Translations under genes and position numbers: made by a program
Shown here: in pieces, positions 20,136 through 61,849 of the stretch
Numbering within the stretch: the first letter of the stretch is position 1
Layout of the letters: each line of letters starts with the position of its first letter
Assembly (NCBI GenBank): GCA_026545225.1
Contig: CM048845.1
Span: 123,122,033-123,186,032, forward strand
Length of the DNA stretch: 64,000 nt
Source of the DNA: Cornus controversa
Lineage: Eukaryota; Streptophyta; Magnoliopsida; Cornales; Cornaceae
Direction of reading: 5' to 3'
The notes under the pieces: generated by a model
The model's database searches: none
The model's input: the letters and a program-made list of their open reading frames with translations, nothing else
What the model was told of the DNA's origin: nothing

Positions 20136-20978
20136 ATGGAAGTGTTTAAACAAATTAAAATTAATATTCCATTTCTTGATGCAATTCAACAGATCCCCTC
20201 TTATGCAAAATTTTTAAAGGACTTGTGTACGGTCAAACGTGGCTTAAATGTGCACAAGAAAGCCTTCCTTACTGAGCAAGTCAGCTCAATCATCCAACAT
20301 CGCACTCCACCTAAATTTAAGGATCCTAGATGTCCTACAATTTCATGTGCCATAGGTGATCAAAAAATTGAGCAAGTTTTGCTTGACTTGGGTGCGAGTG
20401 TCAACTTGTTGCCTTACTCTGTTTACGAGCAACTAGGTCTAGGTGAGTTGAAACCCATGAAGGTGGTACTCCAATTAGCAGATCGCTCAGTTAAGGTACC
20501 TCGTGGTGTTATTGAGGATGTACTTATTCAGGTTGATAAATTCTTCTTCTCTGTAGACTTTATTGTCTTAGACACTCAACTTGTAGCTAATCCTACTAGC
20601 CACATTCCTGTTATCTTAGGTCGTCCATTCTTAGCCACTTCAAATGCTCTAATCAACTATAGGAATGGTGTTGTAAAACTCTCTTTTGGAAATATGTCGG
20701 TTGAGCTTAATGTTTTTAACGTAAACCGACAACCACCAGACTCTGAGGATATTTGTGAGGTAAATTTAATAGAGAGTCTAGTTCAGAATACTTTTATTCA
20801 TGCTAGTTATAAGGACCCTTTAGAGGCAAGCCTAACTAATTTTGTCTGTAATTTTGATATTGATAGTGCTTGTAAAGATGTGAATGCTTTATTGGATGTG
20901 AATGTTTCATTGAATTCAGTCCATTTTATCAACACCAAAAAGTGGAAAGTCAAGATGGAAAGCCTAGGTATAGGTTGA
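20136..20978 (+). pseudogene. Athila-like retropepsin remnant
   Basis: Shows the retropepsin pattern of the lineage: a LLDLGASVNLLPYSVYEQLG stretch at the active-site region, a beta-rich segment with GVIEDVLIQVDKFFF, and VILGRPFLATSNALI near the end. It lies directly downstream of the gag remnant. Fossil. Confidence 0.8.
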
Positions 20979-31775: not shown

Positions 31776-34385
31776 TCAACTCCCCGTAGGGTTCATGATC
31801 TCAGAGAACACACTTGTCATCATCACTCCACTGCTCGACACGTGTCCATGACCAACACCTACCGACTCATCTAGACGGTTAAGATCCTTTTCCTTAAATT
31901 CTACCTCATCTCCATCAATTTTGATTCCCTCCTCCTCACTCACTTGTAGCTTCAAAGCAAACTCAAGGGTCCACAGTACTTCATTCATTGACGGCCGTTT
32001 GATTCCCTCATCATGCAAACACCTCACCGCTATCTCCCCGAATCTCTTCAAACACTCTGGCTTGATCTTCTCGATCACATGCGGATCAACTATTTGATCA
32101 AGTGTACCATTTTGATAACATTTGCGAGCCCACACAGCTAAGTTCACTTGATCTCCCTCCAGCGCCCTATTCAGAGGTGCCCTACCACATAATACCTCAA
32201 ACAACACCACGCCAAAAGAGTACACGTCAGACTTCTCTGTTAATTGCTGGCGTTGATAGTATTCCGGATCCAAATAACCGAAACTGCCCTTCACCGCTGT
32301 GCTGACGTGGGCGTTGGAGACGTCAGTGGGGTTTATTTTGGATAATCCAAAATCCGAAACCTTGGCCACCCATTTATCATCCAATAAAATATTGGTCGTT
32401 TTCACGTCGCGGTGAATGACCCTGTGCTTCGCACCTGCATGGAGGTAATGCAACCCGCGGGCAGCGCCGATGCAGATCTCGAGCCGTTGCTTCCACGGCA
32501 GCGGAGGATTATCAATGCCGTAAAGATGATCACTGAGAGTCCCACGAGACATGTAATCATACACAAGGATCATCTCACGTTTATCGTTGCAATAGCCAAT
32601 AAGAGACACGAGATGGCGATGACGAAGCTGAGAGAGCATCTCGATCTCCGTATTGAACTCGTTGGCCCCTTGTTGGGACCCTTGTTTAAGGCGTTTGATC
32701 GCAACAGGGGTGGACCCACTGTCTATATACCCTTTATACACATCGCCAAAGCCTCCACGTCCAATGATGAAAACATTGTCAAAGTTATTAGTTGCGGTTT
32801 TGATTTCACTAAAAGAAAAGTGACGACAAAGATCATACGGTACAAGTGAGCCACCCATTTTGTCGTTTTTTGTTGTGACGTACGAGATTGGGGCCCAACA
32901 TGATGCTTCTCCATGGCAGGAAACTGATTCCTTAACTCTCCTCCGTTGCCGGAAAATCAACAAACCAAGAACAGATAGTGCGACCATACATGAAAGAACA
33001 ACGACGACGACTAGTATAGTTTTTCGTTTTTCCGGTTTCTCTGGTTGTGGAGTAGACGGTGAAACCGGGTCCAGGTTGAGTCCGGCCAGATTGCCGGAAT
33101 AGTCACTCATTTTGAAAACCTCTAGCCCATTCAAGATGGCGTCAGAGTAAACAGTCCTTGTGTCCTCATTAGGATGCAGAGCTACAGACAGATTCCGTTT
33201 CTTCTGTCTTCCTGGACTCACCATCATCACTGCAAAATCTCTATAAACCGGGACGTGATTTCTTCCTGCAGCCCAAACGATGACATCGGCTTGAGGCTTG
33301 GCCGTCTGATTCGCTATGAATATACTAAATTCCCTATCACTTCGCTTTGTCACGTTAACTTGAAACTCACAAAAGTGTAGCCTGAGCAGATATGTAAAAC
33401 CCGAATCCACAGGCAAATTCCAAGTGAGATTGTACTTCTTGTTCTCTGTTTTGTTGTTTCCCATGGACCGAGCGGTCGTATATACTTCGGCCGGTGCAGT
33501 GTAATTGGGTACATCACTGGTGAAAATAGGTTGGATAGTACTCGAGTCAACTGGAAGAGCCCCTATGTTTGAAACATACTTGTCGTCGTTCAACCAGTGT
33601 CGGAACATGCCCGTGTCCTGCATGGGCGAAATCTCACTCCCACCAACATTCAATCTTTGTACGGTCTCAAGAGCAGTGTTGTTTTCAATACGAAATACTG
33701 TGTTTAGCTTGCTGCCGATAAAACTAACACCTTGTGACTCGGCGGAGCTGTAATAAAGATTGGTAGGCATGGATACAATTTCAATTCCATTGATGAAAGC
33801 ATATGCATCGGACGGAGTTGAAGACGGAGTGAAGGTGATGTTCAATGTTTGATCTTGATCTTCAATGTTTATGCAGAATTCTTTGACTAGATAGTCGTAT
33901 CCGAAATAAGTAGCTGTTAGGGAAGCACTGAAGTTGCTGAGAAGAGTGAATTGATTGGCTTTGACGGAGAAGAAGGCTTTGGTGGGGTCAAAGTCTGGTG
34001 CGTATTGAGAAGGGTAGAAGTGCAAGCGGATGAATTTTTGGCCGGCGGTGACCAGAAATAAGTAGCTGAAATGAGACAGTGATATGCGTGCTGTCATGTA
34101 GGGAAAACTGCTCACTTGGGGAGATTGTCTCTGTGCATTAGAGGCTATTGATGTCTGGTGTTTGTCTTCTAAAGTGGAGAGAGAATTTGTACCAATGTCG
34201 GTGACCCATATTCTGCCTTCCGGCGTGGTGTTGTTGACGGGGGAGCGGGAGCCGCAGTCGAGGGCGATATTTTCAGTAGGGTTGTAAGGAGCTGGTAATG
34301 AGTCGCAGGAAATGGGGAAGAGGAGGTACAGAGTGAGAATCACTAGATTGTATAAATATAGAATTGTCCTGCTCGTGTTCTTCAT
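31776..34385 (-). CDS. FERONIA-like receptor kinase (CrRLK1L), gene 2
   Basis: Intronless, 869 aa. Signal peptide (1-~28), malectin-like ectodomain (~34-428), shortened Pro-rich linker, transmembrane helix (~456-479), kinase (~535-812). Catalytic residues are intact: GRGGFG 542-547, Lys 564, HRD 658-660, DFG 678-680. From RHRHLV to the APLNRAL segment after the activation loop the kinase is identical to gene 1, whereas the first ~150 residues follow gene 3 (ALDCGS, HQTSIASNAQRQSPQVSS, MTARISLS). It shares with gene 1 the missing ~20 residues in the C-terminal tail. The start at 34385 (MKNTSRTILY) aligns with gene 3. The 5' flank matches gene 3, the 3' flank gene 1. Predicted role is a plasma-membrane RALF/wall-sensing kinase. 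It looks functional, though the mosaic structure means family trees from different parts will disagree. Confidence 0.95.
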   Translation of the reverse strand: MKNTSRTILYLYNLVILTLYLLFPISCDSLPAPYNPTENIALDCGSRSPVNNTTPEGRIWVTDIGTNSLSTLEDKHQTSIASNAQRQSPQVSSFPYMTARISLSHFSYLFLVTAGQKFIRLHFYPSQYAPDFDPTKAFFSVKANQFTLLSNFSASLTATYFGYDYLVKEFCINIEDQDQTLNITFTPSSTPSDAYAFINGIEIVSMPTNLYYSSAESQGVSFIGSKLNTVFRIENNTALETVQRLNVGGSEISPMQDTGMFRHWLNDDKYVSNIGALPVDSSTIQPIFTSDVPNYTAPAEVYTTARSMGNNKTENKKYNLTWNLPVDSGFTYLLRLHFCEFQVNVTKRSDREFSIFIANQTAKPQADVIVWAAGRNHVPVYRDFAVMMVSPGRQKKRNLSVALHPNEDTRTVYSDAILNGLEVFKMSDYSGNLAGLNLDPVSPSTPQPEKPEKRKTILVVVVVLSCMVALSVLGLLIFRQRRRVKESVSCHGEASCWAPISYVTTKNDKMGGSLVPYDLCRHFSFSEIKTATNNFDNVFIIGRGGFGDVYKGYIDSGSTPVAIKRLKQGSQQGANEFNTEIEMLSQLRHRHLVSLIGYCNDKREMILVYDYMSRGTLSDHLYGIDNPPLPWKQRLEICIGAARGLHYLHAGAKHRVIHRDVKTTNILLDDKWVAKVSDFGLSKINPTDVSNAHVSTAVKGSFGYLDPEYYQRQQLTEKSDVYSFGVVLFEVLCGRAPLNRALEGDQVNLAVWARKCYQNGTLDQIVDPHVIEKIKPECLKRFGEIAVRCLHDEGIKRPSMNEVLWTLEFALKLQVSEEEGIKIDGDEVEFKEKDLNRLDESVGVGHGHVSSSGVMMTSVFSEIMNPTGS

Positions 34386-38382: not shown

Positions 38383-39547
38383 ATGGATCTAACCAATGCA
38401 TTCCCCGAATCAAAGAAAATTGATGAAGATATATGTTTGGTTGACAGTACAACAACACATACTATCCTTCGAGATAGAAAATATTTTTCTCATATAAATT
38501 TAGTTGAGACTAATGTTAATACAATATCAAGATCTGTAAACCTGATTGAAGGATCTGGAAAAGATTGTATTGTGCTCCCATTTGGAACAAAATTATATAT
38601 TGATGATGTACTATGCTCAAACAGATTCAGGAGGAATCTATTAAGTTTCAAAGATATACATTATAATGGATATTATATTGAAACAATAAATGAAGGGAGT
38701 ATAGAATATTTATGCATTACATCTACAATTTCATGCAAGAAACATGTTTCAGAGAAACTCTCGACTTTCTTTTCTGGATTATATTTTATGAATATAAGGA
38801 CAATTGAATCACATATAGTGATGCACCAGAAGTGCTTTGACCCAAAGAATTTTATACTTTGGCATGATTGCCTTGGTCATCCTGAGTCAACGATGATGCG
38901 TCGAATTATTGAAAATTCAAATGGACATCCAGTAAAGAATAATAAAATTATTTTGACAAGTGATTATACATGTGTCACATGCTCACAAGGAAAGTTAATT
39001 GTGAGGCTATCTCTTTCAAAAGTTCTTGTTGAATCTCCTGATTTTTTAAAAAGGATCCATGGGAATATATGTGGGCCTATTCACCCATCATATGGATCAT
39101 TTCGTTATTTTACAGTCTTAATTGATGCCTCAACTCGATGGTCTTATGTATGTTTACTTTTTACTCGCAATGTAGCATTTGCTAGACTATTGGTACAAAA
39201 GATACTGTTCCTCGAAAGAGGAAAATATAATAGAAAGTGCAAAAAAAAATGACACTCCTTTGAAGGTCATACTTACAAAGGGAGCAATAATAGCGCTTGA
39301 AGAAACACAAGCCCTTGATGAGGCCATTGAAATAATAGCCCTTGATGAGGCAGAAAAAAAAATAGTAATACCTAAAAATGATGAGATATCAATAAATTAT
39401 GCAAAAAGATGGAACAGAAATAAAGTTCTTGTCAACAACATATTCTCTTTCGCAGTTGCTCTTGATATTGCAAGAGATGATGAGGATCCGGAATCACAAT
39501 ACGTAGACGAATGTCAATGCATAAATGATTGGCCAAAATGGAAATAA
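38383..39547 (+). pseudogene. Copia protease / GAG-pre-integrase / integrase remnant
   Basis: A protease-like WLVDSTTTHTI-type stretch (LVDSTTTHTILRDRKYF) comes first. The GAG-pre-integrase HDCLGHPES motif follows, then CVTCSQGKL and the start of the integrase core (DASTRWSYVCLL). The rest of the integrase is mostly absent. Fossil. Confidence 0.75.
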
Positions 39548-42908: not shown

Positions 42909-44100
42909 ATTGTAGTTCTCTCTTCCTTGTCTCACAATCATCACTGCATAATCTCTATAAACCGGGACGTAATTTCTTCCTGCAGCCCAGACGATGACGT
43001 CAGCTTGACGCTCAGCCGTCTGATTCGCTATGAATATACTAAATCCCCTGTCACTTTGCTTAGCCATCTCAATTTCAAAATCACAGAAGTTTAGTCTCAC
43101 CAGGTACATAAAACCCGAATCTACAGGCAAATTCCAAGTGAGATTGTAGATCTTGAACTCTGGTTGCATGTTTCCTATGAACCGAGCGCTGATATATAGT
43201 TAGACCGGTGCAGTGTAATTGGGTACATCACTGGTGAAGATAGGTTCGAAATCCCAGTTAAGTGGAAGAGGCCCTATGTTTGAAAAGTAATCGTCATCAT
43301 TCAACCAGTGTCGAAATATGCCCGTGTCCTGCATGGACGAAATCTCACTCCCACCAACATTCAATATGTGTACGGTCTCAAGAGCAGTGTTGTTTTCAAT
43401 ACGAAATACTGGGTTTTTCTTGTTGCAGATAAAAGTAACACCTTGTGTCTCGGCGAAGCTGTAATAAAGATTGGTAGGCATGGAGACAACTTCAATTCCA
43501 TTGATGAAAGCATATGCATCGGACGGAGTTGAAGACGGAGTGAAGGTGATGTTCAATGTTTGATCTTGATCTTCAATGTTTATGCAGAATTCTTTGACTA
43601 GATAGTTGGAGCCGAGATAAGTAGTTGTTAGGGAAACATTGAAGTTGCTGAGAAGAGTGAATTGATTGGCTTTGACGAAGAAGAAGGCTTTGGTGGGGTC
43701 AAAGTTTGGTGGGTATTGAGAAGGGTAGAAGTGCAAGCGGATGAATTTTTGGCCGACGGTGACCAGAAATACGAAGCTGAAATCAGATAGAGATATGCGT
43801 GCTATCATGTAGGGAACAATGGTCACTTAGGGAGATTGTCTCTGTGCTTTAAAGGCTATTGATGTGTTTTTTTTTGTTTTAAAATGGAGAGAGAATTTGT
43901 ATCAGTGTAGGCGACCCATTTCCCGCGTACTGGCGTGGTGTTGTTGACAGAGGAGCCGCAGTCAAGGGCGATATTTTCAGTAGGTTTGTAAAGAGCTGGT
44001 TGTGAGTCGAGGGAAATGGGGAAGAGGAGGTACAGAGTGAGAATCACTGTATTGTAGAAATATATAATTGTCCTGCTGGTGTTCTTAATTGCAAGAGAGA
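42909..44100 (-). pseudogene. CrRLK1L (FERONIA-like) pseudogene
   Basis: Ectodomain only. From right to left: signal peptide with DSQPALYKPTENIALDCGSS (44047-43856), malectin-like region (43826-43200) and its C-terminal part (43169-42913). The start codon aligned with genes 2 and 3 is changed (ATT at about 44091). The frame is broken between these blocks, and two stops lie in the ectodomain. Homology stops at about 42913 after GRE, so the linker, transmembrane helix and kinase are missing. The 5' flank (44092-44150) still matches genes 2 and 3. It is close to gene 3 in sequence. It abuts the Copia 3' LTR, so transposon insertion with deletion probably removed the kinase half. Confidence 0.92.
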
Positions 44101-49625: not shown

Positions 49626-52298
49626 TCAACGCGCCTTGGGATTCATGATCTCAGAGAACACAGCACCTGAGGACACTTTATCAGATCCATCAGTCGTAAA
49701 ACTCATCCCACTTTCACTCGTCATCGCCACCCAACTGCTTGACACGTTTTCATCATCGCCACCTACCGGTCCAATCAGACGGTTGCTATCCTTTTCCTTA
49801 AATCTTACATCAGCTCCATCAATCCTCATTCCCACCTCCTCACTCACTTGCAGCTGCAATGCAAACTCTAGGGTCCACACTACTTCATTCATTGATGGCC
49901 GTTTGATTCCCTCATCATGCAAACACCTCACCGCTATTTCCACAAATCTCTTCAAACACTCCGGCTTGATCTTCTCCATCAAATGCGGATCAATGATCTG
50001 ATCAAGAGTGCCGTTCTCATAACATTTGCGGGCCCACATAGCTAAGCTCACTTGATCTCTATCCAGCGCCTTATTTAGTGGTGCCCTAGCACACAATACT
50101 TCAAGCAACACCACCCCAAAAGAGTACACATCAGACTTCTCGGTCAATTGCTGACGTCGGTAGTATTCTGGATCCAAATACCCGAAACTACCCTTCACCA
50201 CCGTGCTGATGTGGGCATTGGACACGTCCGTGGTGTTTATTTTGGATAATCCGAAATCCGAAACCTTCGCCACCCATTTATCATCCAATAAAATGTTAGT
50301 CGTCTTCACGTCGCGGTGAATGACCCTGTGCTTCGCACCTGCATGGAGGTAATGTAGTCCACGCGCAGCGCCGATGCAAATCTCGAGCCGTTGCTTCCAC
50401 GAAAGCGGGGGATTATCTGTGGCGTAGAGATGATCACAGAGGGTCCCACGTGACATGTAATCATATACAAGGATCATCTCACGTTCGTCGTTGCAGTATC
50501 CAATAAGAGACACCAGATGGAGATGACGGAGCTGAGAGAGCATCTCGATTTCTGTTTTGAACTCGTGCGCCCCTTGTTGAGACCCTTGTTTCAACCGTTT
50601 GATCGCAACCTCGGTGGCCCCACTGTCTATATACCCTTTATAGACGTCGCCAAAGCCTCCACGTCCAATGATGAAAACATCGTCCAAGTTGTTTGTTGCG
50701 GTTTTGATTTCAGTAAAAGAGAAGTGACGACACAGATCAGACGGCAGAGGTGAGCCACCCACCTTGTCCAATTTTGGTGCCACGTAGGAGATCGAACCCC
50801 ACCATGATGCTCCTCCATGACTGGAACCTGATTCCTTCCCTCTCTTCCGTTGTCGGGAAATCAAGAAACCAAGAACAGAGAGTGCGACCACACCTGAAAG
50901 AACACCGCCGACAACGGCAGCGACTAGTGTAGTTCTTCTCTTTTCCGACTTCGCCGGTTGTGGAGCATACGGTGGAAACAGTGGTGCAACTGGGTCAGGG
51001 TTGGGTCCGGCGAGATTGCCGGAATAGTCACTCATTTTGAAGACCTCTAGCCCATTCAAGATGGCGTCAGAGTAAACAGTCCTTGAGTCCGCATTAGGAT
51101 GCAGAGCTATAGACAGATTCTGTTTCTTCTCTCTTCCTGGACTCACCATCATCACTGCAAAATCTCTATAAACCGGGACATGATTTCTTCCGGCCCAAAC
51201 AATGACATCGGCTTGAGACTCGGCCGTCTGATTCGCTATGAATATACTAAATTCCCTGTCACTTGGTTTTGTCACCTCAACTTGAAACTCACAAAAGTGT
51301 AGTCTCACCAGGTACGTAAAACCCGAATCCACAGGCAAATTCCAAGTGAGATTGTACTTCTTGTTCTCTGTTTTGTTGTTTCCCATGGACCGAGCGGTCG
51401 TATATACTTTGGCCGGTGCAGTGTAGCTGGGTACATCACTGGTGAAGATAGGTTGGATAGTACTCAAGTCAACTGGAAGAGCCCCAATGTTTGAAACATA
51501 CTCGTCGTCGTTCAACCAGTGTCGGAACATGCCCGTGTCGTGCATGGGCGAAATCTCACTCCCACCAACATTCAATCGGTGTACGGTCTCAAGAGCAGTT
51601 TTGTTTTCGATACGAAATACTGAATTTTGCTCGTTGCCGATAAAAGTAACACCTTGTGTCTGGGCGGAGCTGTAATAAAGATTGGTAGGCATGGAGACAA
51701 TTTCAATTCCATTGATGAAAGCATATGCATCGGACGGAGTTGAAGACGGAGTGAAGGTGATGTTCAATGTTTGATCCTGATCTTCAATGTTTATGCAGAA
51801 TTCTTTGACTAGATAGTCGTAGCGGAGATAAGTAGCTGTTAGGGAAGCACTGAAGTTGCTGAGAAGAGTGAATTGATTGGCTTTGACGGAGAAGAAGGCT
51901 TTGGCGGGATCAAAGTTTGGGTATTGAGAAGGGTAGAAGTGCAAGCGGATGAATTTTTGGCCGCCGGTGACCAGAAATACGTAGCTGAAATCAGACAGAG
52001 ATATGCGTGCTGTCATGTAGGGAACACTGCTCACTTGGGGAGATTGTCTCTGTGCATTAGAGGCAATTGATGTCTGGTGTTTGTCTTTTAAAGTGGAGAG
52101 AGAATTTGTACCAGTGTCGGCGACCCATTTCCTGCGTTCCGGCGTGGTGTTATTGAGAGAGGAGCCGCAGTCGAGGGCGATATTTTCAGTAGGGTTGTAA
52201 GGAGCTGGTTGTGAGTCGCAGGAAATGGGGAAGAGGAGGTACAGAGTGAGAATCACTAGATTGTAGAAATATAGAATTGTCCTGCTGATGTTCTTCAT
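49626..52298 (-). CDS. FERONIA-like receptor kinase (CrRLK1L), gene 3
   Basis: Intronless, 890 aa, the copy closest to canonical FERONIA. Signal peptide (1-~28), malectin-like ectodomain (~34-430), Pro-rich linker, transmembrane helix (~457-480), kinase (~538-815). GRGGFG 545-550, Lys 567, HRD 661-663, DFG 681-683 are intact. The activation segment reads STVVKGSFGYLDPEYYRRQQ, the usual CrRLK1L form, where genes 1 and 2 have STAVKGS and YQRQQ. The C-terminal tail keeps a Ser/Asp-rich stretch (ESGMSFTTDGSDKVSSGAVF) before SEIMNPKAR; FERONIA ends in a similar VFSQIMNPKGR. Genes 1 and 2 lack that stretch. Predicted role: plasma-membrane receptor for RALF peptides and wall signals. A broken RALF-like gene lies 3.1 kb upstream on the same strand. 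Confidence 0.96.
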   Translation of the reverse strand: MKNISRTILYFYNLVILTLYLLFPISCDSQPAPYNPTENIALDCGSSLNNTTPERRKWVADTGTNSLSTLKDKHQTSIASNAQRQSPQVSSVPYMTARISLSDFSYVFLVTGGQKFIRLHFYPSQYPNFDPAKAFFSVKANQFTLLSNFSASLTATYLRYDYLVKEFCINIEDQDQTLNITFTPSSTPSDAYAFINGIEIVSMPTNLYYSSAQTQGVTFIGNEQNSVFRIENKTALETVHRLNVGGSEISPMHDTGMFRHWLNDDEYVSNIGALPVDLSTIQPIFTSDVPSYTAPAKVYTTARSMGNNKTENKKYNLTWNLPVDSGFTYLVRLHFCEFQVEVTKPSDREFSIFIANQTAESQADVIVWAGRNHVPVYRDFAVMMVSPGREKKQNLSIALHPNADSRTVYSDAILNGLEVFKMSDYSGNLAGPNPDPVAPLFPPYAPQPAKSEKRRTTLVAAVVGGVLSGVVALSVLGFLISRQRKRGKESGSSHGGASWWGSISYVAPKLDKVGGSPLPSDLCRHFSFTEIKTATNNLDDVFIIGRGGFGDVYKGYIDSGATEVAIKRLKQGSQQGAHEFKTEIEMLSQLRHLHLVSLIGYCNDEREMILVYDYMSRGTLCDHLYATDNPPLSWKQRLEICIGAARGLHYLHAGAKHRVIHRDVKTTNILLDDKWVAKVSDFGLSKINTTDVSNAHISTVVKGSFGYLDPEYYRRQQLTEKSDVYSFGVVLLEVLCARAPLNKALDRDQVSLAMWARKCYENGTLDQIIDPHLMEKIKPECLKRFVEIAVRCLHDEGIKRPSMNEVVWTLEFALQLQVSEEVGMRIDGADVRFKEKDSNRLIGPVGGDDENVSSSWVAMTSESGMSFTTDGSDKVSSGAVFSEIMNPKAR

Positions 52299-53240
52299 TG
52301 CAAGAGAGACTTAGAACACAGAAGACACAAGATGGAAAGATGTGAATGGAATTAAAGATTTGAAAAGTTTGGCTCTAAACGAAAATGGGAAAGAGAGCTA
52401 ATTTCATTTCGTAAAGAGTGTGAATCAAGTCATAGATATATACTCTTGTAAAAATATGAACTTAGGCATGCTCACAAGAAGGTTTTACTTGGTCAAAATT
52501 ATAGTTCAAGTTCTGATACTACTGAATTTAAGTAATTCCAAAATTGTGTTTTTTTTTTTGCCAAGTACATGGTGGAGATTTTATTGATGATATATATATA
52601 TATATATATAAAGTTGAAAAAAATTAGTAGCTGAAGCCATCAAATTTTGCTGCAACCATTTTTGTAGATTAATAAGACATCCCTGGGAGAAGTAGCTGTT
52701 AAGACGCGTTAAGGGTGTGGGCCAATGGAACGAAGACTCGGACGACTTGACTTAGAAAAGTCTCTGGCACTCCCACCACATTTTTTTCCACCAAAAAGAA
52801 AAGAAGAAGATTGAGACGACCACTATACATATACAATAATTGATAGCTAGCAGCCTAGCACTGTGGAAGAAGATTAGGACGTGACCACTACTACACTATT
52901 TGATAGCATTGTTTCTTTTTGAGAGAAGTAACTTTCATATTAAGCAATTGATTGACCACTAACTACCCCATGGATTCGATCTGTACATTCTTAGATTACC
53001 ACAACTCCTCAACCTATCCATCATTTATCGTCTAATTTAACTACCAACTCCAATCCTCTGCTGTCTACACAAGAGAGGAGGCTGAAAAAGTCCACGGCAG
53101 ACTACATTTTTTTGAGTATATATATATATATATAGGATCTTCTTTCTTATTCTAATAATTATACAGTTATACTACAATAAGTACGTAGTACTAGTAGATG
53201 CAGTACTAACGTACAAGCACCGATAAGTTTTTATTCTATC
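52299..53240 (-). repeat. 5' flank of gene 3, shared with gene 2 and with 62270-62700
   Basis: Includes the conserved leader, the W-box, an (AT)n run (52590-52610) and GACTTAGAAAAGTCTCTGGC near 52750. It is paralogous to 34386-35590. Confidence 0.8.
52491..52496 (-). promoter_or_regulatory. Conserved W-box upstream of gene 3
   Basis: TTGACC on the coding strand, about 195 bp upstream of the ATG, in the same block as in genes 1 and 2. Confidence 0.45.
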
Positions 53241-53690
53241 TTGTTATTTATGGAATTCCAGTGACTCTTACTTCTATTCTATGTTGTTAATCAGACAATT
53301 AAAGAAAAAAAAATTAAAAAGAAAAAGTGGAAATAGTATCTCCCAAGTACAATAATTGCAATGTAATTAATTGCAATGTAAAATAAGTAGACGCAACTTG
53401 TCATGCAGTGAATGGGGGTGGATGATAGCACTAAAAAATGTTTTAATGCGCTGTGAATGAATTTTGTCGTATACTAAAACTTCAAACTACTGCGGTCCCT
53501 TTGTCCACATCAAATGAGCTTTTCCCTTCAAAAGAGGGCAAAGGTTTTAATTTTTAAAATAATTAGATGGTTGGGCTATATGATTCCCATCAATCCCACA
53601 ACGACATATTATTAAAAAATTTAATAAAATTGATATATTTTACTGATAGTGTCATTTTTTTATTGGTTGAAATTATGTAAAAATATCTTT
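53241..53690. other. Spacer between gene 3 and RALF-A, paralogous to 63440-63660
   Basis: 53270-53440 (GAAATAGTATCTCCC, then GCAATGTAA..., GACGCAACTTGTCATGCAG) aligns with 63450-63660. No gene seen. Confidence 0.6.
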
Positions 53691-53916
53691 TTAAAGAGAA
53701 ATGTTAAACGACATAAAATTATTTCATAAATTTGTATGGTGAATGATGTGACAGGTAACGTGGAGAGTTCGTATTGGTGAAATTCGATGATAATATCATG
53801 AGACTCTGTGTATGGAGGGAATCCCACTAATACTAACTCTCCACGTTACCTATCACATTATTCATTATACAAATTCATGAAATAATTTCATGACGTGTAG
53901 CATTGCTCTTCTTTAA
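53691..53916. mobile_element. MITE with ~80-bp terminal inverted repeats
   Basis: 226 bp. The left arm starts TTAAAGAGAAATGTTAAACG and ends GGTAACGTGGAGAGTT. The right arm is its imperfect reverse complement, ending GCTCTTCTTTAA. The long hairpin and short loop mark a non-autonomous DNA transposon. Superfamily not determined. Confidence 0.85.
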
Positions 53917-55117
53917 ATAAGACAATTTGTGAGTGTGTTACTTAGCTAAAAATAATAAAACTTTTGAGATATGATATTTTTGTAAGTAGGAAGAAAAATT
54001 GTTTTTCAATTAGTTATGTTTTGAACGGAGAGAAGATACCACTAGACCACATTACAGAAAATATTTTATTGATTTCACAAATATTTGTAGTACAAATGAT
54101 ATCTCATCAATTTTTCAAAATGTTTAAAATTTCATAGGGAACAATTGAGTAATTATGTTATTTTGTAAAAAAGAAAAAAAAAAGAAAACTTTATTTTTTG
54201 TTGCCTTCACAACCTACTATGTTGTTTGGCCCTAAGCCATCACTTGATCGATGTGTATATGAATTTGGATAGACAACTAATTAAGGTGGACTATTCCAAA
54301 ATCTTTTAAATACTTGTTTTGTGTCGGCTTCAATTTAGTTCACCATATATTCCCCCACAAGATAACAATCATTGAGTCTCTCTACTTGTCTCAGAACTGC
54401 ACCGACACATTGGAAAATATAGTTTGACGGAATAGTTGAGCAAAATTGTTAGACAGGAACCTTTATATTCATCGGATGGATGGATGCATGCATGTGAGAG
54501 GTGCATATGGTGTAACCCATCACATAATGTAAAAATTTAAGTCCATCAATTCTGCTTCTTTGAGATTTTATACAAAATTGAGTTTAAGAAATCATGCAAG
54601 TTGAAATATGAACAACAGCAGTGACTGTGTAGTAGTAATGTAAAAAAAAATCAAAGGTAAAGTGTTTGTGTAATTTGTCCCTCCCAACACCATCGAGTTG
54701 TTAATGGACACTGAGTAATGACGCTTGAACCATTCTGGTGCTGAAGCGTTGTGGGTGAAACGTACGAGCAGTGATTCAAATAAATTGAGTGGAAAAATAT
54801 AACAATGGGACAACTGTACGTTCCTTTTTCTTTCTTTTATACAAATGTGGGAGTCGATGAGTTAACTTGCTGGTTACTAAATTTCAACCTCTAAATTGGT
54901 TATGTTATAATCCAATGACAGATAGAGCTACATTTCTTCACATCTTTGAGGTGAATCTTACACATGAATTCAATAGCAAATTATGCCTGTTTTCTGTTGT
55001 GAGAGGGCGACATGACATAGAACTCGTCAAAAGATCCACGTACAGTTATCTATGCATTATGTAAAATCCAAACAGCAAAAATCTAGAGAAGAAGATCGAG
55101 ACATATGTATATGTCCA
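53917..55117. other. Intergenic, no gene recognised
   Basis: AT-rich. A short open frame at 54592-54813 (minus) shows no known domain. Confidence 0.5.
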
Positions 55118-55341
55118 AAATCAATAATGTATATATAGTTGAAACTTGAACAATCATCACTAGAAACACACATAGCTTGCTTAGAAATCAATACTAATAT
55201 GCACGATTGATGCACGAGTAGAGACAAGTGATCTTATATGTTCCTTACATTTGCGGTTGATTCACTCATCTCGTTTCTAGTTATGTATATATAATTATTG
55301 CATGCTTAATTCGATCACCATACACCAAGCAAAGAGGGGTT

Positions 55342-55379
<38 letters not shown>

Positions 55380-55391
55380 GTAGTGGACTAA
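55118..55391 (-). repeat. 3' flank of RALF-A, present three times in the window
   Basis: GCTTAGAAATCAATACTAAT, GAGACAAGTGATCTTAT and GCAAAGAGGGGTTTGC recur at 61155-61436, and partly at 63700-63890. Contains an (AT)n run at 55346-55378. Confidence 0.8.
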
Positions 55392-56030
55392 TTATGGTTT
55401 GCCTGGGCGGCACCTGTCATAAGTATTGCACTTCCGACCTGATTGTAATACCTCGCTCCAACACATGGTATGATATTGTCCGCTTTGGGCTTGAGCCCGC
55501 ACGGTTTTGCTCTTGGGTTTTACCCCAAAAGGCCTCATACCATTTGAAGAGAACATACTACATATAAGCACATCCCCTTTTCCACACCCAGGCGATGTGG
55601 GATTGAGCATCCTGTACCCTGTCAGTGTGGTAGCTCAGCCCAGTGTCTATCTTCGCACCCGCCCACTCACACCCGTCCACAAGGGTTACTACACTGATTT
55701 TCCGTTTGGCAGTGGAAGACAACTTGCGTATTTAGGTCTACCACAGTCTGCGGCTGCTTTACCCGGTTTAAGAGCCTTTTTAGTGTTTCCTCGCACTGAT
55801 AGCATTGATCTGATTACAATTTCAGAATCCATTGAAAAGTAAAGCAGCTGCTGATCATCTTCCTCCATCAGGCATTCGCCAATGCTATCGTTGCAGTTCT
55901 TCTTATGTAGTGTGGTAGATCCACATACAAGTGCAAGTGCGCTCATCAGTATTACTATTACAAAAAATACTAGTGCCAATGAACACCCTTTCTTCACACA
56001 AATAAGCAACATTTCACAACTCAATTTCAA
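55392..56030 (-). pseudogene. RALF-A: RALF-like peptide gene split by a TRIM solo LTR
   Basis: From the start at 56030 the frame encodes a basic N-terminus, a hydrophobic signal segment (CSLALVFFVIVILMSALALVCG), then NCNDSIGEC, typical of RALF precursors (CNGSIxEC), an acidic propeptide, MDSEI, and the first two cysteines of the mature peptide (DCGRPKYASCLPLPNGK). A 250-bp solo LTR (55444-55693) with its CTGAT duplication follows. Beyond it, 55443-55392 encodes the last two cysteines (RKCNTYDRCRPGKP) and a stop. The spacing C-x7-C-x11-C-x5-C fits RALF closely. The RRxL processing site and YISY motif are absent, as in the divergent RALF clades. RALF peptides are secreted ligands of CrRLK1L kinases. 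The insertion puts a stop right after Lys-Ser-Val, so only a two-cysteine product could be made. Confidence 0.8.
55444..55693 (-). mobile_element. Solo LTR of the TRIM-2 family inside RALF-A
   Basis: 250 bp, the reverse complement of the TRIM-2 LTR (TGTAATACC to GGGTTACTACA on the plus strand). It is flanked by the perfect duplication CTGAT (55439-55443 and 55694-55698). Confidence 0.95.
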
Positions 56031-57671
56031 TTTCTTCGCAAAAATACTTTACTTACTCCAACAAGCCAATTCACCACTCTTTGTCTTTCAGCAATACCAG
56101 CCCTTTAGAGTAGTGTCTTTTATAATTGAATCATTAGCTTCGGATATCAAATGAATGGTCATCCTCATTCCTGGTTAGCTCCAACTGGCCGGTTTAATTA
56201 TTGGTACCATCTATGTATGTATGTTAAAGGATAGAAAATAAAGGAGGAAAAGGAAAACTCATCATAAAGTAGCAGCAACCCAATAATTATTGATGTCTAC
56301 GCCTGTCCACTGTTATATCCAATTTGAATTAAATGTATTTCTTTTATCGAATATGAATCTCCTGCAAAATTGTCTTTTCTTACCATCAGAAACTAAAATT
56401 TGTTGCTCCATCTCTTCCCATGATTATGTCACAGGATTCAGTATTTATTAATAAGATAAACTAAGAGGGAAAAAAGAGCAATGATAACATTACTTTGTTA
56501 TGGAAAAAAAAAAAAAAGTAAAGAAAAGAAATTATAGTTTTAACTTGGTTTTGAGATAATTTAGATAAAATAGAGGAATGGTTTGTTTTATTTGACACTC
56601 TAATTTAGATAAAATAAAGGAATGATTTAAATATGACAATCCAAAATAGAAACGTAGATTATTAAATTGAAACCGATAGAATATATTTTTGTAATTGATT
56701 CATTCGTCATACACCCAACAAAGAGGAGTTTGCATTATACATTAATTTGTGTGTCAATCTGTGATTTGTGGAGAGACGACTGCAATGTATTATCAGAGCA
56801 AGAGAGCATTGGTAAAAGATCAAAGGAGGAAAAATAAAACTTAAGGTGAAGTACTGAAGTACCATGTACCCAGTAATGATATGTCTATTCTGTGTCCCTT
56901 GTGATACTGACTTGATTTGAAGTTTGAAATCATCACAATTAAAAATTACCAGTAATCTCGCAATTTATGTTATGAGAGAAAGTCGGCAATCTAGAGCATT
57001 CAATTGTTCTCAAAATTAATTACAGCAATTTTACAACTTGTCAAGAAATGATTAAGTGGATAACTCAAAATTAGATTAAGGAAAATGACAGCAATTTTAC
57101 ACCCGACTCACATATCGACTGACGTGAAAAACAAACTTGGCGGGACACGTAATCTCTCAAACTCGTATACTCTCGTTCACTCTCTCACTCTATCCCCAAT
57201 TTATCAACTCTCAAACTCTCGCTGCTTTGTTCTTTTTTGTCTCTGCTCTCTCTTTCTTTCTGGTTCACTCTCACATTCCATCCCTAATTTTCTCGCATAA
57301 ATTTGTAATCCTAATTTCAATCTCATACTCTACCCCCCTGAGAAACCTAGAGCTGAAAATTCATGATCCGAAGCAATTAGGGGTAAAAAATGATCATGAT
57401 ATGAGGGGAATGAAACAAGAGCAAACCCATTTTGTTTCACATATCAAACAAAACATAAAAACAGAAAAAAAACAAAAAATCCATTAAAAAACTATAAAAT
57501 ATTAACATATGTTTTCTTGATGCTTTGGTTCTTCAAAGCAAGAGGCACAAATGTTTGTTTGTTGTATTTCCTTGTTTCGCTGGTTTTTCTTTGGGAACCC
57601 TATTCCATGGTGCATTGATGCTCTTCCTTTTGCTCTGTTTTTCTTTCGGTTATTTTGTTTTATAATGTTCT
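56031..57671. other. RALF-A 5' flank and intergenic sequence
   Basis: 56330-56400 (TGAATCTCCTGCAAAATTG..CTTTTCTTACCAT) matches 60115-60160, so part is duplicated. CATACACCCAACAAAGAGGA (56708 onward) recalls the RALF 3' flank. A CT-rich stretch at 57150-57290 looks like a leader, but no coding exon follows. Confidence 0.45.
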
Positions 57672-57674
57672 GTA

Positions 57675-58113
57675 AGAGCATCCACTGTGGGATTTTCAAA
57701 TTTGGTTCTCCAAATTTGAATTTTAGCTAGTCACCTCAACATTTTAGTCAGCTACATCATCATGTCAGGATCTCTAAATTTTAACTCCAAAACAAGTTCT
57801 CAAGATTTGAATTTTAGCCAGATACATCATAATCTCTAAATTTTGATTCCACATCAGGTTCTCCAGATTTTCACTACCCACACAATTAAATAATCTTACA
57901 TAATTAAATTAATCTAAAATTTTATGTATATACATATTTATATTAATTTTTTTAATACTTTTTTAACTTGAAAAATTCATAATTTTTTCGTTTTAAGTCA
58001 AAAAATAGCTTAAGTGGTACTCAACTTAAAGCTCTCGAAATTATCTTTTTAACAGAATTAGTTTCATCAAAAAATTCAATTTATAGTAAAAGTTATTGAC
58101 ATTTAAGTAAATG

Positions 58114-58153
<40 letters not shown>

Positions 58154-58345
58154 CACATTTTTATAAGAAAAAGACAAAAAAAAAAAAATATATATATATA
58201 TTTGGATAGCTATGTGGTTGGCCGGATTTAGCCAATCACTTAGCTAACCAATGCTGAGTCTCACAATTTTAACTATATTGTTGTATTACTACAGTAGCAT
58301 TTTGTTGGTCAAATGGTGTTTGGCTATCTCATTGGTGGTGCTCTA
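57675..58345. mobile_element. Non-autonomous DNA transposon (GAGCATCCAC-type ends)
   Basis: Starts AGAGCATCCAC and ends GTGGTGCTCT, an imperfect terminal inverted repeat of a kind common in plant MITEs. The interior is AT-rich and contains (AT)n runs (58118-58150 and 58188-58201). No coding. Target duplication not clear. Confidence 0.55.
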
Positions 58346-58443
58346 ATGATTTTTCCAGTTCCTGCTATGTTGTTGGAGGTGAGCCAAAGTTAGGAATATT
58401 TTGGTTTTTGAATGGGTTTCGCATAGGAATCGGCAGTAGTTAG

Positions 58444-58790
58444 TTGTGTTTGGCATAAAATAATGAAATATAATGAATATTCTATTAAAGTGATAATGAA
58501 ATAAAAATGTGAATGAAATTGAATTATCATTTTCATTCTATTGTTTAGTTTCAAACATAAAATGATACAGAAATGAAATAATGATTACATTATTTTTGAT
58601 AACTAGATTTTATTTTTTAATGTTTATTGAAAATGAAATGACGATATCACAAGTTGAGTAGTGAAATAAATTTTCATTCTAAGGAATGACGCAAAATGGT
58701 CATTCCCACTTTAGTTTTTTTTACCAAATAAAGGAATCGATCCAAAAAGGTAATATTAGAATTTCATTCCATTGTTGCCTACTAAACACA
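58444..58790. mobile_element. MITE with TGTGTTTGG-type ends
   Basis: Starts TGTGTTTGGCATAAAAT and ends TGCCTACTAAACACA, with inner complementary stretches such as GAATGAAATT and AATTTCATTC. Typical AT-rich plant MITE; superfamily unassigned. Confidence 0.55.
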
Positions 58791-59342
58791 TCATTAAATT
58801 AATTTAGACTCAAAATTAAATTAATTATTATTTAAACTCATTATGCAATATTATTAACTAACTAAAACTTAATGAAATATATAAAAAAAATGAATTATAT
58901 ATCAATTCTTGAATAAATTTATAATTAAATTTTTTTACTTCTATTTGGTGGTAATTTTTCCTAATAATATAAATCAATAAACCTATCTAGGCATGGATAC
59001 ATGTGACCCGTGCACATGCAACATCTGAATACTAGTATTTAATCATTTGATTGTAAAATTCACGAAGAAAATACTTTGCTAATTTGTCAATTAGGATTCA
59101 ATTTTAATGCATAAAACACCATGAACTATAAACTTTAGAGGTAATATAAATATTCTTACCTCAATCCATCACAACTAATGGAACTTGAAACCTGAGTGCT
59201 TAGTATGGTGTTTCATTGTCAAAGAGAGTTTCAAGAATATGATTTGAAACCTTAACATTCCTAATATAACATATTAATTTATGATGAAAAACTAAAAGCC
59301 TCTGATTGATTGGAAGACCAATAATTAATATGTTATATTAGG

Positions 59343-59391
<49 letters not shown>

Positions 59392-60045
59392 TGAGAGTTA
59401 CACATTTACATATTCTTTTATAAAAATCCAACAATTTAATAGAGTAATAATGTTAGCACCTAATGATCATTAGATTTAAGGATCAAATTCTCTTGAATAC
59501 AAATAATTCTTTGAAAGTGAGAGTGTGTACTAAAAAAAAAAAAGTCTTAATGTTCTAGTGTAATGGAAGACAAACTCACATTTCCATTACGAGTGTAACA
59601 ATCTTTAGAATCCTTGCATCATCGCATTTGGAAAAAAATAATACAAATCATTCAACAATAATTCAAGTCAACCTGTTCAAATATGCATATGTATATCCCC
59701 TTGATCATACAACACCGCCAGTAGAACCCTTGCATCAAAATATATGTCAATTACAGTTTACTCTTCAATTGAAATATATGCATGCCATCAGATTCAGATT
59801 TGGATATCATTTTATCAAAAATCAAAACGCCCTAGCAGACTCCATCATACAATTAACAAGTGCCCTCTTCTTCACTATCAAGGGAAATCTGGTCGGTCTT
59901 ACATTACTTTATAGTGGTACTTCTCTTTCCAGATAAAGGCTAGAGTTTGAAATCTTTCTCCAATTCCAAGCCCTAGCTAGCAGCAGATCTATGGGCAATT
60001 GGATTTTATATATATATTTGTGGTGAATACTATAGTGGTATAGTA

Positions 60046-60081
<36 letters not shown>

Positions 60082-60556
60082 GGTGAATACTATAGTGAAT
60101 CAAATCATTTTTATCTGACATGAATCTCCTACAAATATTTTCTTTTCTTACCATGACAAACAAAAATTTTATACTGTGAAAGTCAGTCAGGAAATTACTG
60201 GGTTCAGTTTTCTCTTGGACTTCATTAGTTATGAGAAGAAAAATAATTAAAACAAAGGAAATGATAGTGTTAAGTTGTCCTTATGTTTTGATAATTTACA
60301 ATAGAAAAGATATTAATAATAATCCGTGATCGTGTTTGAAAAAGATAATTGAGATAAAATAAAGTAATATTTTTATTATTATTTTACAAACCGTGTAGAA
60401 GCAGACATACATTGTGCACATTTTATGCATGCACTTGCAAAAAAGCACCAAATGCACAATATCTGTCATTTATTGCCCATAAATTACTTGTGTACATTTG
60501 GTGGGTAATATTTCAATGCGTTTGCTTACAAATTGATGAGAAACTAAAATAAACAT
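58791..60556. other. AT-rich intergenic sequence, no gene recognised
   Basis: Contains (AT)n microsatellites at 59346-59388 and 60042-60077, and a short duplicated phrase TTTGTGGTGAATACTATAGTG (60017 and 60077). The open frame at 59628-59936 has no known domain. Confidence 0.5.
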
Positions 60557-60831
60557 TTTTAATTACGGAAATGATAAAAGATCCGATCTGTATCCGGACT
60601 TGCGTCTGAGCTATTTGAACAACTAAGCGAAGTATTAACAACCATGCACCTTTAACCAAATAAAATAGAGGAATGGTTTGCACCTTTATCATTTTAACCA
60701 AACTGGATTCGTGCAAATTTTTGTATCAAGTGAGATTTTTAATTACGAAAATGATAAAAGATCCGATCTGTATCCGGACTTGCGTCTGAGCTATTTGAAC
60801 AACTAAGTGAAGTATTAACAATCATGCACCT
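60557..60831. repeat. Direct repeat, two ~95-bp copies 179 bp apart
   Basis: TTTTTAATTACGGAAATGAT through GTATTAACAACCATGCACCT occurs at 60557-60651 and again at 60736-60831 with few differences. Confidence 0.9.
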
Positions 60832-60845
60832 TTATTTATTGGACG

Positions 60846-61123
60846 ATACTTACCTACTCACCGGTGTGTAGGTGAGCCCTCCTGACCGCTGATGTGTCCC
60901 AATAAAAAATCAACACATCAGCTTTAATTACAAAATTAAATTTAAAATGCAATAAATAAGTATAATAAATGAGATTTAAAATGCAATAAATAAGTATAAT
61001 AAATGAGATTGACCTCATTTATTATACTTATTTATTACACTTTAAAACTGACGTGTTCAATTTTTATTGGGACACATCAGTGGTCAGGAGGGCTCACTTA
61101 CACAATGGTGAGTAGGTAAGTAT
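60846..61123. mobile_element. MITE with long terminal inverted repeats
   Basis: 278 bp. The left arm is ATACTTACCTACTCACC, then GTGAGCCCTCCTGACC and GATGTGTCCCAATAAAAA. The right arm is the reverse complement ending GGTGAGTAGGTAAGTAT. The centre holds a further direct and inverted AATAAATAAGTATAATAAAT repeat. Foldback-like. Confidence 0.85.
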
Positions 61124-61154
61124 TATTCTTATTTATTTATTTATTTATTTTTTG

Positions 61155-61436
61155 AAAATTCAAGCAATCATCACTGGAAACAAACAGAGGCAGAACAATT
61201 TTATTATGAAATTGTACCATACATATATAGGTAACAAGCTTAGAAATCAATACTAATATGATTGATACACGAGTAGAGACAAGTGATCTTATGTGTTTCT
61301 TACACATTTGCGGTTGATCCTCTCGTCTCGCTTCTTGTTATGTATATATAATTACTGCATGCTTCACAATACACCAATACCAAGCAAAGAGGAGTTTGCA
61401 TATATATATATATATATATATATATAATGCAATGGA
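61155..61436 (-). repeat. 3' flank of RALF-B, paralogous to the RALF-A 3' flank
   Basis: Shares long blocks with 55118-55391. Contains (AT)n at 61400-61424. Confidence 0.8.
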
Positions 61437-61849
61437 CTATTGCCTGCACATTTCACGGTATCGGCAACGATCTTTTGGTCTTCCATTTTGCTTAGGAATG
61501 CAAGGACTATATGATCGTCCTCCATCACACTTTCCGCCTACAGATGCACGTTGATTTGAAGCTCGTGTAGTCAGTAGATCCCCATATTCTGCGAGTAGCC
61601 TTCTACTTATTTCATGATCCATTGGAAGCTCCAGCTGTTCTTCGTCCATGCCGCATTCGCCAATGCTACCTCCATTGCTGCAGGAGGAGGAGAGGAGTAG
61701 TGTGACTTGAACAAGTTGATCCTCTTCTTATGTGAGCTATATGTAGTAGAGGTAGAGTTAGCTCCACATACAATTACAATTGTGCCCAGCATCACCGCCA
61801 AGACTGCTAATGAACCGCTTTTCTTCACAAACACTAATGCATGCACCAT
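61437..61849 (-). pseudogene. RALF-B: RALF-like peptide gene with a broken frame
   Basis: The start at 61849 (MVHALVFVKKSGSLAVLAVM) gives a signal peptide like RALF-A. In a second frame the gene continues with CSNGGSIGEC, MDEEQLELPMDHEISRRLLA and a complete mature part, GGKCDGGRSYSPC, IPKQNGRPKDRC, RYREMCRQ. The spacing C-x8-C-x11-C-x5-C and CDGG..SYS match RALF32-type peptides. ISRRLLA is a good RRxL processing site; YISY is absent. The two frames change over between about 61690 and 61740. A CTCCTCCTCCTGCAG stretch there resembles a splice acceptor, but no plausible donor lies close by and RALF genes are normally intronless, so an indel is more likely. An unbroken second frame from 61649 would lack a signal peptide. 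Secreted function is therefore doubtful unless splicing or an assembly error explains it. Confidence 0.72.

Follow-up and report, generated by a model that had tools for sequence, protein, structure and literature searches.

Introduction

FERONIA-type CrRLK1L kinases are the receptor class known to bind RALF peptides, and canonical RALFs dock to LLG by means of their YISY motif. To our knowledge, the RALF and FERONIA-type receptor genes of Arabidopsis are unlinked, and CrRLK1L members outside the characterised pairs have no assigned ligand. ANXUR1 (At3g04690) and RALF21, which we take to be At3g04735, have near locus numbers, for which chance could be the explanation. Here, we describe a locus of Cornus controversa in which RALF-type peptide genes lie within a tandem array of FERONIA-like CrRLK1L genes. 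The starting point was a stretch of 64,000 nucleotides (the window; C1:123122033-123186032, where C1 is contig CM048845.1), which we analysed together with 100 kb on each side and the remainder of the genome assembly (771.7 Mb, 61 contigs).

Published work is cited below by PMC number. The known RALF-CrRLK1L pairs involve FERONIA, THESEUS and the ANXUR/BUPS group (PMC7783096). For LET2/MDS1, which belongs to a tandem CrRLK1L cluster in Arabidopsis and functions in autoimmunity, the authors named no ligand; RALFs or other molecules were suggested as candidates (PMC7519094). A literature search that covered part of the matching papers found no published report of linkage between RALF and CrRLK1L genes.

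Results

RALF and CrRLK1L genes are linked at three loci

RALF and malectin matches are spread over ten contigs, C1 to C10. The RALF set consisted of 28 matches to the Pfam profile PF05498 and 11 further places found with R3, an intact peptide of the C1 array, which together gave 39 matches in 20 loci; the CrRLK1L set consisted of 36 whole-domain, single-exon matches to PF12819 that were hand-picked from 142 and fall into 21 loci. Three of the 20 RALF loci are inside a CrRLK1L locus or no more than 10 kb away from one, with 0.02 expected under uniform placement (P ~1e-6). When the C1 locus, which had raised the question, was left out, the count was two of 19, at a per-locus chance of 0.00106 (P ~2e-4, hand calculation). 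Since gene placement is in fact uneven, the true P exceeds the computed one. As a control, we used 66 positions of other malectin receptor-like kinases, taken from 106 non-CrRLK1L PF12819 matches after second pieces of the same genes had mostly been dropped; none of the 20 RALF loci lies within 200 kb of them. Two CrRLK1L-like genes outside the count (C1:121.92 and C2:70.55) were both away from any listed RALF match.

The two additional loci are on contig C2:

C2:5.79-5.88 Mb, locus C2a, CrRLK1L matches at 5.794, 5.805, 5.851 and 5.870 Mb
C2:99.51-99.52 Mb, locus C2b, RALF at 99.514 Mb and CrRLK1L at 99.5215 Mb on the same strand

At C2a, the receptor gene at 5.870 Mb is complete, the one at 5.851 Mb has a stop in its tail, and those at 5.794 and 5.805 Mb end at or just past the ectodomain. 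RALF copies are located at 5.855, 5.857 and 5.883 Mb, the last being the only complete one.

Overall, the linkage of RALF and CrRLK1L genes is real and non-random, and because two further loci of the same genome show the same neighbourhood, it is probably inherited. An earlier note on this DNA had described the linkage in the window and likened it to self-recognition loci such as SCR/SRK. The linkage exceeds chance and recurs at two more places, whereas the SCR/SRK comparison is not supported, as discussed below.

The linked genes suggest a common origin

We built a receptor tree of 17 rows with 11 receptors of the linked loci (K9 was dropped), the FERONIA-like gene of C8 and five other CrRLK1Ls. 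The 11 receptors of C1, C2a and C2b form one clade (100/100) apart from the five others and from the C8 gene, which we take to be the FERONIA orthologue by its C-terminal sequence; among themselves, the linked receptors have diverged to ~55% identity. The linked peptides fall inside a clade of 12 (91/86) that also contains two unlinked C10 peptides. Outside C1, the best match of R3 is a C2a peptide, and the best matches of the C2a peptide outside C2a are in the C1 array. On this evidence, support for a linked ancestor is fairly good in the case of C1 and C2a and weaker in that of C2b.

The two C10 peptides are encoded by adjacent RALF genes at C10:39.007 and 39.009 Mb; they carry HISP/YISP motifs, and their first cysteine loop is longer. 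This pair groups with the linked peptides, yet it lies 7 Mb from the nearest counted CrRLK1L.

Organisation of the C1 locus

The C1 locus spans ~220 kb (C1:123.13-123.35 Mb), and the window covers its left edge only. It holds ten receptor copies, namely four complete genes, one pseudogene, four genes with a kinase and a degenerate second kinase, and one gene without a kinase. At least 13 RALF-type copies, each with ~60 or more matching codons, lie on the minus strand at C1:123177730-123267825, in addition to short fragments. Seven of these copies are intact from the start codon, and all seven are outside the window; because R10 equals R13 and R11 equals R14, they encode five different proteins. 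For the window itself, Pfam matches and reading frames bore out the inventory of the earlier note, which had listed three complete CrRLK1L genes, one CrRLK1L pseudogene and two RALF-like genes on one strand; this is the minus strand. In window coordinates, the features are as follows:

7200-9851, minus strand, CrRLK1L K1, complete frame of 883 aa, PF12819 Malectin_like and kinase domain, in receptor tree
31776-34385, minus strand, CrRLK1L K2, complete frame of 869 aa, PF12819 and kinase domain, in receptor tree
42918-44089, minus strand, CrRLK1L pseudogene, truncated, ectodomain only, broken frame
49626-52298, minus strand, CrRLK1L K3, complete frame of 890 aa, PF12819 and kinase domain, in receptor tree
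55392-56012, minus strand, RALF-like R1, coding pieces 56012-55694 and 55443-55392 split by an insert
55444-55693, minus strand, insert in R1, 250 bp, TG...CA ends, perfect 5-bp target duplication ATCAG
61437-61849, minus strand, RALF-like R2, frameshift, signal half in another frame than the cysteine half
64129-64512, minus strand, R3, intact, just right of the window and next gene after R2
79.4 kb (R5), 95.8 kb (R6), 109.4 kb (R10), 121.2 kb (R11), 133.5 kb (R13) and 145.4 kb (R14), minus strand, intact
84706-87402, CrRLK1L K4, complete, 898 aa, inside the RALF array
157678-161334, K5, right of the RALF array
right of K5 and extending to C1:123350261, K6, K7 (plus strand), K8 and K9

The Malectin_like ectodomain and the Ser/Thr kinase are in a single uninterrupted frame in K1-K3, K4 and K5. 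The best PDB matches of K3 were the FERONIA kinase (E 8.1e-144), the FERONIA ectodomain (5.5e-112) and ANXUR1 (7.1e-79); against NCBIfam, all models matched by K3 were far below their cut-offs. Similarity between K2 and the tail of K3 extends beyond the K2 stop codon, with the match reading through one TGA, and the pseudogene matches K3 in two pieces at 78-79% identity.

Within the array, a 24.2-kb block is repeated in tandem at 99.7% identity (window coordinates 105778-154117); it contains RALF copies and no receptor match, and could be a recent event or an assembly duplication. Retroelement reading frames (gag-type aspartyl protease and gag_pre-integrase) lie between receptor genes at 20136-20978 and 38383-39252 of the window. 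The GC content of the window is 27-48% in 2-kb bins. On its left side, beyond the window, the array is bordered by RGP and COBRA-like genes, which are possible synteny markers.

Both RALF-like genes of the window are broken paralogues of the array peptides

Failure of the two window genes to match the RALF profile had been named beforehand as refuting the earlier note, and both genes do fail PF05498. The separate pieces of R1 and R2 gave no match at E<=1, and R1 read across the empty site of its insert, which yields a precursor of 121 aa whose mature region has four cysteines, scored 14.8 bits against a cut-off of 22 bits. We then used an array profile made from five neighbouring peptides (R3, R5, R6, R7 without its signal part, and R11). 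This profile scored 70.6 bits on R1 before the insert and 10.5 bits after it, and 55.1 and 79.9 bits on the two frames of R2; a canonical RALF reached 37.2 bits and the best of 400 shuffles 5.7 bits. R1 and R2 are clear paralogues of the neighbouring array peptides, and both are broken. Because these paralogues have four cysteines and a propeptide of RALF type, and PF05498 recognises two of the five tested, we set the profile failure of R1 and R2 aside.

The R1 insert is probably a solo long terminal repeat or an element resembling a terminal-repeat retrotransposon in miniature, because it has TG...CA ends and an ATCAG duplication and because sequences of 229-251 bases match it (82-97%) at 15 other places of the 264-kb region.

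The array peptides retain four cysteines and lack YISY

Among the C1 peptides tested, R3 (31.3 bits) and R7 (34.0 bits) exceed the PF05498 cut-off and R5, R6 and R11 are unmatched; the C2a peptides (40.2 and 42.8 bits) and the C2b peptide (30.2 bits) pass. Identity to R3 is 78% for R5, 45% for R6 and 64% for R11. In the mature C-terminal part, four cysteines are invariant in eight aligned linked peptides, and the N-termini of the linked C1 peptides are hydrophobic as judged by eye. The site RRLL is present in R2, R3, R5, R7, R10, R11, R13 and R14, and hence in six of the seven intact C1 copies, R6 being the exception; both C2a copies have RRIL and C2b has RQLL, and no RRxL site occurs in R1, R4, R6, R9 and R12.

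YISY is missing from the C1 array and from C2b, and C2a has partial ISY/FSY. The motif matters for the receptor binding and activity of canonical RALFs (PMC7098601, PMC9583537), and clade IV RALFs likewise lack it (PMC7098601). In a PDB search, the sole match of R3 was RALF8, with the four cysteines aligned, which at E 0.68 is suggestive and not significant. The C2a peptide gave chance matches only in the PDB search, and R3 had no match in NCBIfam. The C-terminus of R6 has a weak match (E 0.006) at C1:128830623-128830733, in a 107-aa open frame 5.6 Mb from the array.

Kinase-pseudokinase receptors at the right side of the array

K5-K8, which lie at C1:123280-123350 kb, have open frames of 1240-1297 aa (1218 aa from the first ATG in K5) that combine a malectin-like ectodomain with two kinase domains, assigned by Pfam for K5 and by frames plus two kinase matches each for K6-K8. 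In the second kinase domain, the VAIK lysine is missing in all four, and HRD and DFG are lost in three. K9 is a 566-aa frame with the ectodomain and without a kinase. Similar long CrRLK1L-like frames with two kinase matches occur at C9:26.72-26.80 Mb and C5:44.16 Mb.

Substitution rates and sequence exchange

All distances are Nei-Gojobori counts and not likelihood tests. Among K1-K4, the ratio of non-synonymous to synonymous distance (dN/dS) is 0.10-0.17 in the kinase and 0.46-0.76 in the ectodomain; the kinase is thus conserved, and the ectodomain is under less constraint. The synonymous distance (dS) is 0.37-0.47 in the kinase in five of the six pairs (0.07 for K1-K2) and 0.10-0.20 in the ectodomain. 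In five of the six pairs, the ectodomain has the smaller dS of the two, so the K1-K4 ectodomains look homogenised, which suggests gene conversion.

For the mature region, dN/dS ranged from 0.50 to 2.33 over the 15 pairs of six peptides and was at least 0.9 in 11 of them. We do not claim positive selection on the mature peptides, because the ratio exceeds 1 in only five of the 15 pairs and is 0.50-1.22 in the six pairs formed by the intact R3, R5, R6 and R11. At the DNA level, the mature parts of R2, R3, R5, R6 and R11 are 55-75% identical in the pairs that were compared. R3 and R5 differ little in the signal and propeptide (dS 0.03-0.10) and more in the mature part (dS 0.41). Their DNA identity is 97-98% in signal and propeptide and 90% over the 300 bp upstream, against 73% in the mature part and 72% downstream. 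A comparable rise of dS from propeptide to mature part was found for R2 against R3, R5 and R7 (0.09-0.24 to 0.57-0.69), but not for R11 against R3, R5 and R7 (0.41-0.51 to 0.31-0.41). These patterns may reflect an exchange of leaders among array peptides by recombination or conversion.

Discussion

Our best explanation, which we hold with moderate confidence, is that an inherited linked RALF/CrRLK1L pair was copied and expanded and that its peptides bind the neighbouring receptors. In an ancestor, a RALF gene and a FERONIA-type CrRLK1L gene would have become neighbours, and the pair would have been copied to at least the three places described here; at C1, tandem duplication would have led to the present copies of both families, accompanied by repeated loss through insertions and frameshifts. 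The peptides would be secreted as precursors that are mostly cut at RRLL or RRIL by site-1 protease, and the mature forms, with two disulfides in their fold, would bind to the malectin-like ectodomain of adjacent receptors, with signalling through an intact kinase. Because YISY is missing, the C1 peptides would be expected to bind otherwise than via LLG, or to act as antagonists. By analogy with Arabidopsis LET2/MDS1 alone, the role would most likely be local immune or cell-wall signalling.

A bolder version, which we regard as doubtful, is that the linkage group predates the split from legumes and that redesigned RALF-type peptides are private ligands of neighbouring CrRLK1Ls of the FERONIA/MEDOS side, including the kinase-pseudokinase forms, with mature cassettes swapped behind a shared leader in a fast-evolving recognition system. 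A possible published parallel to the inherited pair of our best explanation comes from soybean, where Glyma.08G248700 was once listed as GmRALF12 (PMC10219148), and Glyma.08G248900,.249200 and.249400 are the CrRLK1Ls MEDOS2A-C at Gm08:21.68-21.75 Mb (PMC7397338, PMC8012678). Glyma.08G248700 is two gene numbers from Glyma.08G248900, an adjacency by gene number only (PMC10219148, PMC7397338, PMC8012678).

Several observations weigh against an inherited, functional pairing. The soybean candidate was later rejected as having no RALF domain (PMC10219148), and in the accessible parts of the sources, soybean chromosomes 2 and 9 have CrRLK1Ls and no RALF, with other MEDOS genes on chromosome 2 (PMC9583537, PMC7397338). 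In Cornus, 17 of the 20 RALF loci have no CrRLK1L inside 10 kb, and no RALF is near the FERONIA-like C8 locus or near most of the CrRLK1L loci. Unlinked CrRLK1Ls such as C5:44.16, C1:121.92 and the C9:26.7 group, which are outside our tree and may belong inside the linked clade, are 45-52% identical to K3 in matches that cover the ectodomain and have no RALF match nearby. Because of these unlinked kin, the linked-locus receptors are best described as close kin, without linkage necessarily being general in their clade. The C2b receptor sits on a long branch, the C2b peptide has its best matches in C10:39.007 and a canonical C9 peptide rather than in other linked peptides, and for the ten linked peptides, an exclusive clade was neither recovered nor rejected (approximately unbiased test, p-AU 0.24). 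As to the rates, nine of the 15 mature-region pairs include the broken R2 or R7, and propeptide dN/dS is 0.16-1.83 on few changes. Finally, RALF and receptor copy numbers are unmatched and the recent 24-kb duplication contains RALF copies but lacks any receptor match, so that the two families expand separately.

This unequal expansion, recent in the case of the 24.2-kb block, is also what would be expected if a RALF gene had come by chance to lie beside a CrRLK1L and had been carried along by segmental or tandem duplication, so that the linkage is inherited and the peptides are inactive on their neighbours. The many broken copies and the absence of YISY from the C1 peptides fit such hitchhiking as well. 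We consider it possible though rather unlikely, given that three loci keep the linkage despite receptor divergence to ~55% identity and that the four cysteines are retained while the remaining mature peptide varies widely. An explanation by coincidental adjacency or by false duplication of part of the array has in its favour that the 24.2-kb block could be a doubled haplotype, that a single assembly was used and that the R2 frameshift could be a sequencing error. It appears very improbable, because the other copies differ widely in their mature DNA, the adjacency recurs at two places on another contig, and chance adjacency has the low P values given above, with or without the C1 locus.

The earlier note had pointed instead to a self-recognition locus, in which a RALF-type peptide and a CrRLK1L would be the determinants of self-incompatibility or of a species barrier. 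Linked ligand-type and receptor-type genes and diversified mature peptides are compatible with this, and FERONIA participates in Brassica pollen rejection (PMC13033167). However, the locus consists of tandem arrays with at least 13 peptide and ten receptor copies, many of them broken, and old ectodomain alleles that carry specificity would show the opposite of the lower ectodomain dS found in five of the six K1-K4 pairs. Given these apparently homogenised ectodomains and data from a single assembled sequence, we rank self-recognition low and think it quite unlikely. Birth-and-death evolution accounts better than an S-locus for the many copies, the pseudogenes and the signs of gene conversion among the receptors.

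If the linkage of the inherited pair does mark pairing, it would name specific peptides for specific receptors and provide candidates for receptors without an assigned ligand. Because the standard RALF profile misses three of the five array members tested, gene catalogues may overlook such peptides.

Comparison with known systems

The Arabidopsis RALF-FERONIA-LLG complex (PDB 6a5e) involves the same two families; most Cornus precursors have an RRxL site, the peptides have four cysteines, and K3 is nearest to FERONIA in the PDB. It differs in that the C1 peptides are without YISY. The MEDOS/MDS clusters (MDS1-4 in Arabidopsis, arrays in legumes and poplar) are likewise tandem CrRLK1L arrays, but no adjacent RALF array is described in the accessible parts of these reports (PMC6093868, PMC7397338, PMC7783096). 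Membership of K1-K9 in the MEDOS clade is putative. With the Brassica S-locus pair SCR/SRK, the C1 locus shares the linkage of a gene for a small, cysteine-rich peptide, presumably secreted in the case of C1, to a receptor kinase gene, whereas the gene families are different and the C1 locus is a multi-copy array read from one assembled sequence. The order of a kinase followed by a degenerate kinase in K5-K8 resembles, as far as the accessible descriptions go, the wheat tandem kinase-pseudokinase proteins Yr15 and Pm24, from which K5-K8 differ in carrying a malectin-like ectodomain as well.

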